From an uncultured Prochlorococcus sp. (GTDB lineage Bacteria > Cyanobacteriota > Cyanobacteriia > PCC-6307 > Cyanobiaceae): a stretch of 32,107 nucleotides of DNA. A model generated the notes under the pieces. It did not search any database and was not told the origin of the DNA. It saw only the letters and a list, made by a program, of their open reading frames with translations. Where the stretch lies: the NCBI GenBank assembly GCA_913048245.1, contig CAJWWR010000011.1, forward strand, positions 1 through 32,107, given 5' to 3'. Numbering within the stretch: position 1 is the first letter of the stretch; the number at the start of each line of letters is the position of its first letter. Below are positions 15,766 to 20,601 of this stretch, piece after piece. The position numbers were made by a program, and so were the translations under genes.

Positions 15766-17046
15766 CTAATTAAATCTAAACTTCAAATCGGGGAATATTG
15801 ACATCCAATTTATTTTTTCACTTTCGAAAGAATCAGCAACTATTTTATCAGTGTTATTCTTTATAAAATCTAAGCTGGGTTCTGAAATACCCTTAGAAAT
15901 TGCCATAAAATCGGCTAGTGATCTGGAAACCACTCTAGTCAAATATGCTGCACTTACTGCTTGAAAAGTTCCAGCTATTATCCAATTTGGACCATGCAAT
16001 TTTGTCAAATTCAATAATGCTCGACTACTCCACTCAACAACCCCTTGGGCAAGTGCAGTTTTTATAATCTGCTTAGAAACTGATTCAATCATCTCAGGGG
16101 ACCACTCACAACCCCAAAGCGATTTAATTTCTTTGATCATTAAGGTATTGAGTACTGTCATTGAGAGGACATCTACTGATGGTACAGGCGAAGCAAAAAC
16201 TGTCGCTGCAACTAAAAGTTGATTTTTGTTCTGAATTTCTTTTAACTTAAGTCTTCTAATTACTTCTATTTCTTCTTGCCATTTTATATGCAAATCTTTA
16301 AGTAACCTTTTCTTAGTATTGTCTATATTTTGTTTTGGTCTAAATCCAAATTTCCGGAAAGAAATTGGTATATTTTTAAAGCTATTATTATGAGTGTCTA
16401 CATTCATAATCTTGTTTATGAATCTTTTCGGAATTTGAGACTTTAAGTCATCAAAATTATTTTTATATTCGGAAGATAAAGTTACAAGCCATATTGGCAT
16501 GTCTTCAGGGATTTTCTGGAGCCATAGCAGATCTTTTGCAGATAGTGGTAGTTCTAAATTATAAAGGATAGCTTCACTTTTAAGCCAATCTAAAGGTGCC
16601 TCATTATTTAAGTTATAAGTGGGCATATTTTTAACTGTTATGAGATCATATTCGCCACTCCTTAAATATTGATCAAGTAAATTATTAAATTCAATTTCCG
16701 ACTTTGAATTAAGTAGAGTTATTCTTTGTCTTGAAATATCTTGAAGTACCTCATCAAATCGAGTTGTTCTTGCAGAATTTCTTCTTCTTATATTATTTTT
16801 CTTTTCTAATTCGTCAAAAAACTTAAGATCCTGCTTACATAAATCAACCCAACCAATCAGATCTTTAGGCTCTTCAAATTTAGGAACATCTTTTTTCAAA
16901 TATAGATAGCCAAATAGGCAAAGAACTATAAATCCCAAAAACCCTCCGGAAAAATCAATTACATCACTTACAAACCATTCACCAAAACCTAATAGAAATA
17001 ATATTATAAGAAAATTCTTCTTTGGAAACTTAAGAAAATCCTTCAT
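15766..17046 (-). CDS. DUF697-family membrane protein
   Basis: From the ATG at 17046 the protein has 426 residues; a TTG at 17073 would add nine poorly placed ones. Two membrane segments lie near the N-terminus (about 11-47). The middle is charged and helical, with FDEVLQDISRQRITLLNSKSEI. The C-terminal part carries a DUF697-like block: ATVFASPVPSVDVLSM, then MIKEIKSLWG and a run of helices with small residues. This resembles E. coli YcjF and cyanobacterial homologues, some of which are linked to GTPases; no GTPase motif is seen here. It starts the minus-strand run leading to mntCAB and may share its promoter. The function is unknown. Confidence 0.75.
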   Translation of the reverse strand: MKDFLKFPKKNFLIILFLLGFGEWFVSDVIDFSGGFLGFIVLCLFGYLYLKKDVPKFEEPKDLIGWVDLCKQDLKFFDELEKKNNIRRRNSARTTRFDEVLQDISRQRITLLNSKSEIEFNNLLDQYLRSGEYDLITVKNMPTYNLNNEAPLDWLKSEAILYNLELPLSAKDLLWLQKIPEDMPIWLVTLSSEYKNNFDDLKSQIPKRFINKIMNVDTHNNSFKNIPISFRKFGFRPKQNIDNTKKRLLKDLHIKWQEEIEVIRRLKLKEIQNKNQLLVAATVFASPVPSVDVLSMTVLNTLMIKEIKSLWGCEWSPEMIESVSKQIIKTALAQGVVEWSSRALLNLTKLHGPNWIIAGTFQAVSAAYLTRVVSRSLADFMAISKGISEPSLDFIKNNTDKIVADSFESEKINWMSIFPDLKFRFN

Positions 17047-17101
17047 AAAATTTACTTGAATAAAATCCAACAAGAAAATAACCTAATACTTATGTCTACA
17101 C

Positions 17102-17121
17102 TTTAATCTAATTTAATCTAA
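17102..17121. repeat. Perfect tandem duplication of a 10-mer in the divergent gap
   Basis: TTTAATCTAA occurs twice back to back (17102-17111 and 17112-17121). Two copies spaced by one helical turn could form a binding site for a regulator of either divergent gene, or be a slippage relic. Nothing else in the 17047-17248 gap is clear: no tRNA, and only short A+T-rich hairpins such as TACAAA-N6-TTTGTA at 17136-17153. Confidence 0.5.
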
Positions 17122-17248
17122 GAGACAAAGCATATTACAAACTATTATTTGTATAGATCAAGAAAACTTTTTAATTTACCTAAAGACTTCTTGGATATCA
17201 AGATGCTAAATTTAAAGATTAAAGTAATCTCAAGAAAGAACTCAATTA

Positions 17249-17680
17249 ATGATGACAAATTCAAATTATGAAAATGCCCAGAAGCACAAAAACATTAGAG
17301 GGAACCATAACAGTGAAAGGGTTAACTCAAGAGGGCGATATGGGGGGAATAAAGACGGTGGAGGATTTAGAATAAGGCTTAGTGAAAATGAGATGAAGTC
17401 TGTTAAAACAATTCAAGAAACTTTTAATCTAAAATCAACAGTTGCAGTTCTTGGTTTTTCAGTTAGGACTTTAAGTGAAATGATTAATGATGAGCAGTTT
17501 AGTGAATTAATCAAAAAATATCTTTTAAAAAACAAAAACAGCTCTTTCCTAGAAAACAAAAATAATAGAGATGAGAACATAAATAGCTCTGCTCCTAACC
17601 CTTTTGCTCGCCCTCCTAAAATTCAGAACCCTAAAGGTAATTCATCTGAGGGTAAAAGTGAAGGTGGAGATGAGCAATAA
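17249..17680 (+). CDS. Conserved-looking small protein with ribbon-helix-helix-like core
   Basis: I do not recognise a named family. The 143 residues have three parts. Residues 1-39 are polar, Asn/Gly/Arg-rich and basic, probably disordered. Residues 40-95 are ordered: a strand FRIRLS, a helix ENEMKSVKTIQETFNL, a short turn LKST, and a second helix with SVRTLSEMI. This is the spacing of a ribbon-helix-helix (CopG/Arc-type) domain. Residues 96-143 are again polar with Pro/Lys/Gly and an acidic end. The start is the first of two adjacent ATGs. The gene ends 11 nt inside trpS, so translation of the two is probably coupled. DNA or RNA binding is inference. Confidence 0.7.
   Translation: MMTNSNYENAQKHKNIRGNHNSERVNSRGRYGGNKDGGGFRIRLSENEMKSVKTIQETFNLKSTVAVLGFSVRTLSEMINDEQFSELIKKYLLKNKNSSFLENKNNRDENINSSAPNPFARPPKIQNPKGNSSEGKSEGGDEQ
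17661..17669 (+). promoter_or_regulatory. Ribosome site that fixes the trpS start
   Basis: The purine stretch AAGGTGGAG lies immediately before the ATG at 17670. It sits inside the end of the upstream coding region and selects this ATG over the longer open frame that begins at 17604. Confidence 0.6.
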
Positions 17681-18677
17681 GAAAAGGATCTTATCTGGTG
17701 TTCAACCAACTGGGGACTTACATTTGGGGAACTGGCTCGGAGCTATTAGAAATTGGGTGGATCTGCAAAAAGAGAATGAAACCTTTTTCTGTGTAGTTGA
17801 TTTACATGCAATCACTGCAAATTATGAGCCTAAGGAGTTATCAAAAAACACCTTATCTACAGCAGCTTTGTACCTAGCCTGTGGAATCAATCCAGCAGAT
17901 AGCACAATTTTCATTCAAAGTCATATTCCTGCACATTCAGAATTATGTTGGATTTTAAATTGTATAACTCCAATAAATTGGTTGGAAAGGATGATTCAAT
18001 TTAAAGAGAAGTCAATCCAACAGGGAAATAATGTTTCAATAGGTTTGTTTAATTACCCTATTTTAATGGCCGCAGATATATTACTTTATCAGGCAGACTT
18101 AGTTCCTGTTGGTGAAGATCAAAAACAGCATCTTGAGCTAGCTAGAGACATTGCTCAACAGAGAATTAACGCGAAGTTTAGCAAAGATAAATCTATTCTA
18201 AAGGTGCCAAAACCAATGATAATGAAAGACGGATCAAAAATAATGAGTCTCATTGACGGCACAAAGAAAATGAGTAAAAGCGATCCTAATGAGAACAGCA
18301 GAATTAATTTACTAGATAGTCCAGAAATAATTACAAAAAAAATTAAAAGAGCCAAAAGCGATAGTCAGATTGGAATTGAATTTAATAATCCTGAAAGGCC
18401 TGAATCAAAAAATCTTTTAATGATTTATTCAATTTTAAGTGGCGTTGAAACAGGTGAGCTAGAGAATCAATTATCGGAAACCGGTTGGGGTTCCTTTAAG
18501 AAATTAATTACTGAACTATTAATAGAGGCATTAGAGCCATTACAAGAAAAATACAAAGTTCTAATTGACGATCCTTATCAAATCAATAAAATACTTCTAG
18601 ATGGGAAAGAAAAAGCTGAATCAGTTGCTAATTCAACACTCTCAAAAGTTAAAAAAGAATTAGGTTTCTTCAAATAG
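17670..18677 (+). CDS. trpS: Tryptophanyl-tRNA synthetase
   Basis: TrpRS charges tRNA-Trp. From the ATG at 17670 it has 335 residues, normal for the bacterial enzyme, and begins [20 protein letters not shown]. The class I signatures are HLGN (18-21) in place of HIGH, and KMSKS (200-204). The GEDQ motif (148-151) and the DLHAIT segment are also typical. The open frame extends upstream to 17604, but those residues are the shifted reading of the preceding gene and lack family similarity. It overlaps the RHH-like gene by 11 nt and is followed 7 nt later by thrS. Confidence 0.97.
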
Positions 18678-18684
18678 AAAAGAT

Positions 18685-20601
18685 ATGCCTGAAATTACTC
18701 TTCCAGATGGTTCAAAGAAATTTTTTGATAAGCCAGTTACAACTCTAGAAGTTGCTAAAAGTATTGGACCTGGATTGGCAAAGGCCACTATCGCAGGGAA
18801 AATAAATAATGTTTTGATAGACGCTACATTACCTATATTTGATGATTCAAATTTAGTAATTATCACAGCAAAAGATAAGGAAGGCCTCGAAATAATCAGA
18901 CATTCATTTGCACACTTGATTGGCCATGCCGTCAAACAAATTTATCCTGAAGTCAAAATGGCAATTGGTCCTGTAATAGAAGAAGGATTTTATTACGATG
19001 TTTTCTCTGAACGCAGTTTCACCCCAGAGGATCTACAAATAATAGAGGAGAGAATTACTAAACTTATCAAACAAAATTATGACGTTGGTATCAGCCAAGC
19101 AACAAAAAAAGAAGCCATTAATACTTTCAAGAATAGAAAGGAAAAGTTCAAATTAAGAATCATAGAAGATATTGAGAATGATGAACCTATAAATCTATAT
19201 ATTCATCAAGAGTATATAGACATGTGCAGAGGACCACATGTTCCTAATACTAGACATCTAAGATATTTTAAATTAACCAAATTATCTGGTTCATATTGGA
19301 GAGGTAATAGTGCAAATGAATCCCTTCAAAGGATTTACGGTACAGCTTGGACAACTCAGAAAGATCTTGATGAATACTTAAAAAGGATAAAAGAAGCAGA
19401 AAAAAGAGATCATAGAAAATTAGGGAAAAAACAATCTCTTTTTCATATTCAAGAAGAATCTCCGGGAATGATATTCTGGCATCCTAACGGATGGGTAGTG
19501 TATCAAATTCTGGAGAAATATATCAGAGAAATTTTATTAAAAAATAATTACTTAGAAATCAAAACTCCTCAGGCAGTAGACAAATCGCTTTGGGAGAAAT
19601 CAGGCCATTGGGAAAAATTTAGAGATGATATGTTTACCACAGCATCTGAAAACCGATTGTATGCTATAAAACCTATGAATTGCCCTTGTCATATCCAAGT
19701 CTTTAATCAAGGACTTAAAAGTTACAAGGACCTTCCAATTAGGCTGGCTGAATTTGGCTCATGCCATAGGAATGAGCCTTCTGGGTCCTTACACGGTTTA
19801 ATGAGGGTCAGAAACTTCACACAAGATGATGCGCATATCTTTTGTACTGAGGAACAAATCCAAGAAGAAGTATCCAATTTTATAGATCTTGTCTTTGAAG
19901 TTTATAGAACATTTGGTTTCGACGAAATAATTATTAAATTATCAACTAGGCCAGACAAAAGGGTAGGTAGCGAAGAAATATGGGACAAATCAGAAGAATC
20001 ATTAATAAGAGCATTAAATAATAAACGATTAACCTGGGAATTACAGCCAGGCGAAGGTGCATTTTATGGACCAAAAATAGAATTTTCCTTAAAAGACTGC
20101 CTAAATAGAGTTTGGCAATGTGGAACAATTCAAGTGGATTTCTCTATGCCTATGAGACTGGAGGCAACTTATGTGGATATTAATAATGAGAAGAAAAATC
20201 CAGTTATGCTCCATCGAGCTATATTAGGATCTTTTGAGAGATTTATAGGAATATTAATTGAAGAATATGAAGGGAAATTTCCTATTTGGCTTGCCCCGGT
20301 TCAAATAGTTATTTTAAATATAACTGATAGAAATTCCCAAACATGTATTGAATTTAATAACGAAATTAATAGAAATGGTTATAGATCCAAAGTGGATTTA
20401 AAAAACGAAAAAATAGGATACAAAATTAGAGAATCTACACTGCAAAGGATACCTTTAATCGGCGTAGTAGGAGATAAGGAGGAGGCAGACAGATCAATCT
20501 CGATAAGATCACTTGATGGATCAAATTTAGGCAATCACTCACTGGATCAACTTTTTAATCTAATGGAATCTTTGATATCCAAGAAAGGGAGAATTCAATA
20601 A
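18685..20601 (+). CDS. thrS: Threonyl-tRNA synthetase
   Basis: ThrRS charges tRNA-Thr and hydrolyses mischarged Ser-tRNA-Thr. The 638-residue protein has an N-terminal TGS domain (1-60) and an editing domain with His73 and His77 in [11 protein letters not shown]. Cys181 and His185 follow in [10 protein letters not shown]. The class II catalytic core has zinc ligands Cys333, His384 and His510, in register with E. coli Cys334, His385 and His511. A C-terminal anticodon-binding domain starts near 535. One oddity is NCPCH at 332-336, where E. coli has NCPGH, giving an extra cysteine beside the zinc ligand. It begins 7 nt after trpS, and glk starts 6 nt after its stop. Confidence 0.97.

Follow-up and report, generated by a model that had tools for sequence, protein, structure and literature searches.

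A small RHH-like protein gene paired with trpS in Cyanobiaceae, and the conserved DNA element upstream of it

The window (the whole analysed stretch of 32,107 nucleotides from an uncultured Prochlorococcus sp.) carries a small gene directly upstream of the tryptophanyl-tRNA synthetase gene trpS (Table 1). The program-made list of open reading frames gives it as a plus strand frame of 143 amino acids at 17249-17680. Codons 17249 and 17252 are both ATG and the start that aligns with the homologues is the second Met. Since the homologues begin there, the likely product is a protein of 142 residues. The thrS gene begins 7 nt past trpS, and is followed by a glucokinase-like and then by a homoserine-kinase-like gene (names given by reading). 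The divergent gene on the other side carries a DUF697 domain and is partly similar to the slr1306 family. Rfam gave zero matches in positions 16900-17800 of the window (E up to 1) and in five whole loci (gathering threshold).

Table 1. Features of the small gene-trpS locus (positions in the window)
Feature	Position	Strand	Basis or remark
DUF697-domain gene, divergent	15766..17073	-	profile match
Conserved upstream element (CTTCTTGGATATCAAGATGCTAAATT), candidate operator or promoter	17187..17212	+	conservation; 39 nt before 17252
Small RHH-like protein gene	17252..17680	+	conserved start, ORF, homologue alignments
RHH-like core, residues 38-91 (GGFRIRLSENEM...): helices after an expected ribbon stretch	17360..17521	+	core profile match coordinates, model, conservation
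PNPFARPPK codons, linear motif PF[AE]RP	17594..17620	+	kept in 111/111 sequences
AAGG, possible trpS ribosome-binding sequence within the small gene	17661..17664	+	rarely kept in the genus
Overlap of small gene and trpS, 11 nt	17670..17680	+	ORF coordinates
trpS, tryptophanyl-tRNA synthetase	17670..18677	+	next downstream gene in all loci examined
thrS	18685..20601	+	directly after trpS in several genera besides the window's own; farther away in the rest

The gene is real: its core is conserved far above chance, and a homologue is found in 268 of the 272 Cyanobiaceae genomes searched (genomes at least 90% complete, plus the window's own genome at 78%), covering all 34 genera. Among the 289 genomes of the class sample, the full profile gives 51 matches, every one in Cyanobiaceae, and the strong matches of the core profile (35 of 242 genomes) are confined to the same family. 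Weak short matches to the core profile in 17 genomes from outside the family (E 0.006-0.09) were treated as noise, and neither profile found a homologue in the other cyanobacteria of this sample. Absences were examined in ten match-free genomes and in one with a partial match (G209). Seven of these also have no trpS match and the remaining four of the 11 have trpS at a contig end, so that the misses examined are explained by contig ends or a missing trpS. Among the genomes examined, none has trpS with intact upstream DNA yet lacks the small gene. An apparent second copy in one genome (G107) is a single locus split by the assembly, both copies being nearly identical and lying at contig ends. 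Annotated phages gave no match to the small protein. A phage origin was rejected: 11 viral-contig stretches fitted a pattern, and none of them encodes a relative. The small protein probably binds DNA and has so far been met only in tiny ocean and lake cyanobacteria.

The association with trpS was followed in 111 distinct loci, which remain from sets L001-L110 and L131-L146 after removal of identical ORFs. The window's genus supplies 69 of them, including five named Prochlorococcus MAG loci, and 18 other genera supply the remaining 42. In all 111, and thus in 19 genera, trpS lies immediately downstream. A homologue away from trpS would have counted against the coupling proposed in the first-pass annotation, and none was found. 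The spacing between the two genes, which depends on script-chosen start codons, is -11 in 67 of the 69 loci of the window's genus; the exceptions are +1 (L044, with a premature stop) and +7 (L025). Outside this genus it ranges from -4 to +10 in 36 of 42 loci and reaches +32, +42, +61, +65, +66 and +66 in the other six. The pairing is therefore old, while the 11-nt overlap, confirmed at 17670-17680 as first described, is a trait of the window's genus. Across the genera examined it is thus the adjacency that is kept, and not the overlap itself. The suggestion that the small gene contains the trpS ribosome site holds in part: AAGG is present at 17661-17664 in the window, but a Shine-Dalgarno-like tetramer occurs at -16 to -4 of trpS in only 3 of the 67 loci with the -11 overlap, against 24 of the 44 others. 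The distance to thrS varies among the 111 loci. The DUF697 gene is divergent in all 104 loci where it was detected.

The core of the protein, GGFRIRLSxNEM..., is largely invariant among homologues. R41 and R43 are R or K throughout, with K exceptions seen in L068 and L016. A full-length AlphaFold model of the monomer, built from six sequences, has helices at residues 45-58, 63-78 and 81-101 (numbered from Met2), the first two being of RHH length and joined by a short loop. Ten-residue pLDDT means across residues 41-90 are 88, 88, 83, 79 and 79, and the tails are disordered (overall mean pLDDT 61, pTM 0.30). Of the strand-helix-helix core described in the first-pass annotation, the two helices are therefore recovered in this model. 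The strand is left unassigned by DSSP in both the full-length and the core-only monomer models, and the expected ribbon falls partly in a block with pLDDT 56 in the former. We infer a ribbon strand before the helices from the residue pattern, a conserved RIRL alternation at the expected place.

Structure comparisons of the full-length model lean the same way, at a non-significant level. Foldseek returns 42 weak matches (best E 0.22, prob 0.95; none reaches E 0.001), 38 of which we take to be RHH-type proteins. VIA gives Z values of at most 5.3 (rmsd 13.6 over 71), a level that the tool itself terms common, with tighter superpositions at Z 4.4-4.7 (rmsd 2.8-3.0 over 44-45). The core-only AF2 model is poorer (pLDDT 64, second helix broken); its best matches are UBA-like and homeobox domains, and the 11 RHH-like proteins among its 29 matches rank lower. 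Sequence profiles do not support the assignment: no profile of the RHH families matched the small protein in an HMM search, and Pfam, NCBIfam, PHROGs and PDB sequences gave no coherent RHH match, nor did PADLOC give anything coherent. Several isolated matches were dropped, namely Integrase_1 (E 0.0008, 1 of 19 members), DUF6290 (E 0.057, 1 of 12), MPN499 (E 0.0011, 1 of 12), Trypan_PARP (E 0.0017, 2 of 12, reflecting tail composition) and phrog_10282, whose function is not known (best E 0.0039, 4 of 19). We therefore call the small protein RHH-like; that it is an RHH protein is likely, a reading that rests on one medium-confidence model.

The core is flanked by tails of contrasting charge. RG dipeptides in the basic N-tail and linker number up to 8 (median 1), and the acidic C-tail spans 15-71 residues in the sequences measured. 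The PF[AE]RP motif is invariant; it and the basic, RG-bearing tails would fit the protein- and RNA-binding explanations considered below. In L020, L025, L027, L028 and L030 the acidic tail carries KEEIKEEI-type repeats immediately ahead of trpS; tail length differs between close relatives because the copy number of these repeats varies. Neither Trp nor Cys occurs in the 17,390 residues of the 111 sequences, a raw count unused as evidence.

Upstream of the small gene lies a conserved DNA element which is new here. In the aligned loci, the upstream regions from outside the window's genus have GATGCGnCACACTTGCgCCTGA in common. Column counts were made on 39 loci: 43 were entered, including L078 from the window's genus, and L068, L078, L131 and L135 were excluded for want of a match to the relaxed pattern. 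In 38 of the 39 loci having this relaxed 13-nt pattern, its end lies 22-26 nt ahead of the chosen start codon. The exact sequence ATGCGnCACACTTG is found exactly once per genome in 97 of 160 family genomes, representing 16 of 28 genera, while the reversed control gives 0 in 160. All 97 genomes belong to the 138 from other genera; none of the 22 of the window's genus has it. Of the 97 sites, 54 were checked, and every one of these is directly upstream of the small gene (20 by sequence, 34 by coordinates). The presence of ATGCGnCACACTTG in the aligned loci is partly circular because the pattern was derived there, which does not apply to its uniqueness per genome. Upstream conservation is much stronger here than at six neighbouring genes: the best shared 14-mer (up to 2 mismatches, within 100 nt upstream) is present in 28 of 34 loci for the small gene, against 6/32 for trpS, 5/23 for thrS, 2/9 for glk, 8/27 for the DUF697 gene, 3/9 for znuA and 4/11 for znuC.

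Allowing one mismatch to ATGCGnCACACTTG gives 82 sites in 61 genomes (31 exact, 51 differing at one position). At least 6 of the 51 lie again at the small gene and up to 45 elsewhere, compared with 18 control hits, so a few secondary targets are possible from the sequence counts. One such version, ATGCGAAACACTTG, occurs in three genomes of the same genus (G166, G171 and G192) near C1:29.4 kb, and also at G289:C1:1883867-1883880; it may be a second target.

In L063, L072, L140, L145, L146 and similar loci, a same-strand upstream frame ends in ...MRHTCA-stop with its last codons on the element. Other lineages lack this frame or have it end short of the element. The possibility that the element merely reflects these C-terminal codons was rejected, 7 of 31 loci being without a plus-strand frame of more than 60 aa over it. 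Analysis of dyads and direct repeats found no clear half-sites within the element. A GGCC-nnn-GGCC stretch (or GCC-nnn-GGC, or GGCT-nnn-AGCC), noted by eye, abuts the start codon of the small gene in many high-GC genomes; it occupies the last 12-15 nt before the start in L061-L063, L070-L072 and similar loci. A small hairpin over the ribosome site of the small gene could possibly form from it.

The window's genus keeps a wholly different block, CTTnTTGsnTAnnnnRRTGnTAARTT. It occurs once per genome in 79 of 121 genomes (control 0), and the element listed in Table 1 is the sole match to this pattern in the window's genome, which is 78% complete. Its position relative to the gene was compared by eye in the window and a few other genomes.

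The pairing with trpS, the predicted helix-helix core following a basic RIRL stretch, and the single element per genome in two clades are the observations to be accounted for. Autoregulation is the best-supported mechanism that the sequence comparisons suggest. We infer that the protein would act as a predicted RHH-type dimer binding DNA through an antiparallel ribbon, with the conserved element ahead of its own gene as the candidate bound site. Binding would alter, and presumably repress, transcription of the small gene and trpS as a unit, in response to some putative signal. Since little or no gap separates the small gene from trpS (an 11-nt overlap in the window's genus), such autoregulation would set the supply of tryptophanyl-tRNA synthetase. 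That the small protein is an RHH-type autoregulator setting the level of trpS, similar in working to the repressor TrcR and without detectable homology to it, appears to us somewhat better than an even proposition. The operon autoregulator suggested in the first-pass annotation thus gains a candidate site at the gene's own upstream region, to which the protein would bind. Among the points on the other side, the element is exact in only 16 of 28 genera and could be a plain promoter or the site of another factor, and one would not usually expect tails with RG dipeptides in a simple repressor.

These tails lead to the strongest of the alternatives, an RNA-binding regulator whose basic RG tails and arginine ribbon would bind RNA, for instance a tRNA or the leader of the operon, and influence how the two genes are translated. 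It would make use of the up to 8 RG dipeptides in the N-tail and linker, with the acidic C-tail, and of an element which, lying near the start codon, could fall in the 5' leader; the GGCC-nnn-GGCC-like stretch next to the start codon, seen by eye in many genomes of high GC content, would also suit it. We nevertheless hold it unlikely, since the median RG count is 1, a plausible -10 hexamer lies in the element (CACACT or TAAATT, by inspection) and Rfam found no match in the same part of the window (E up to 1) or in the five loci. Still less probable in our view is that the element serves simply as a conserved housekeeping promoter, or is bound by a different factor, and that the small protein acts elsewhere, for example as a nucleoid-associated protein or wider regulator. 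Much weaker upstream conservation at the six neighbouring genes argues against this, as does an exact element found once per genome and located at the small gene in every checked site (54 of the 97), although the clades differ in their element, the exact form is limited to 16 of 28 genera, and one-mismatch sites elsewhere (up to 45 in 61 genomes versus 18 in the control) allow for other factors or targets. The least probable explanation, a protein partner of TrpRS or the translation apparatus docking through PFxRP with gene order ensuring joint production, draws on the constancy of the motif and of trpS as the next gene (each 111 of 111), but gene order alone does not show interaction and the basic RIRL stretch and the conserved DNA element are left unexplained.

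Picocyanobacteria rank with the most abundant photosynthetic cells, and their set of transcription factors is small. In each locus checked they carry a core gene that lacks annotation, resembles a regulator and is tied to trpS, with a conserved element upstream; the small gene-trpS pair thereby allows a direct test of whether a protein controls a tRNA synthetase in minimal genomes. The open-licence literature yielded no account of the small gene, of its site or of an RHH regulator of a synthetase operon.

Many RHH antitoxins and repressors autorepress their operons. ParD, VapB, TacA, MazE-mt1, NikR, MatP and plant TCP domains are weak fold neighbours of the full-length model. RHH antitoxins and repressors differ from the present case, the small gene having no adjacent toxin gene, trpS downstream and no sequence match to them. 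FciC (55-67 aa) is an RHH-domain protein of marine Synechococcus, encoded in the island for chromatic acclimation (PMC3877281). The likeness lies in a small predicted RHH protein within picocyanobacteria, whereas locus and size differ and FciC is an island gene while the small gene belongs to the core genome.

The closest parallel is TrcR (All0854) of Anabaena PCC 7120, an RHH repressor whose operator, ATACTACACTTGTATTAC, overlaps the -10 box of its own gene, and which controls translation genes with a reported regulon (PMC10272220). No sequence homology to the small protein was detected by profile-profile comparison. TrcR relatives, read off beside TrcR operator sites, are without RG tails and differ from the small protein in their C-terminal part. 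They too score weakly against the Pfam RHH profiles (15.4 bits for the first relative, with a cut-off of 20.5 for RHH_1; best E 0.005 among 7 relatives). The TrcR operator (up to 1 mismatch) is found in 0 of 21 family genomes, against 51 of 173 others sampled. TrcR has a reported regulon, whereas one exact site per genome is seen for the element upstream of the small gene. A more ambitious proposal, which we regard as tentative and rather doubtful, is that the small protein belongs to a lineage-specific RHH family, confined to picocyanobacteria, which is a dedicated one-site DNA-binding regulator of a synthetase gene with RNA-binding-type tails, sensing tRNA or translation state, adjusting TrpRS and replacing the absent TrcR. 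The two proteins nonetheless resemble each other in the RHH core (predicted for the small protein), in an IRL stretch, in the link to translation and in a conserved site upstream of their own genes. Both sites contain ACACTTG; a shared 7-mer could come about by chance at an estimated few per cent. In this comparison the likeness to TrcR is one of working, as far as the analysis suggests, and not of family membership.
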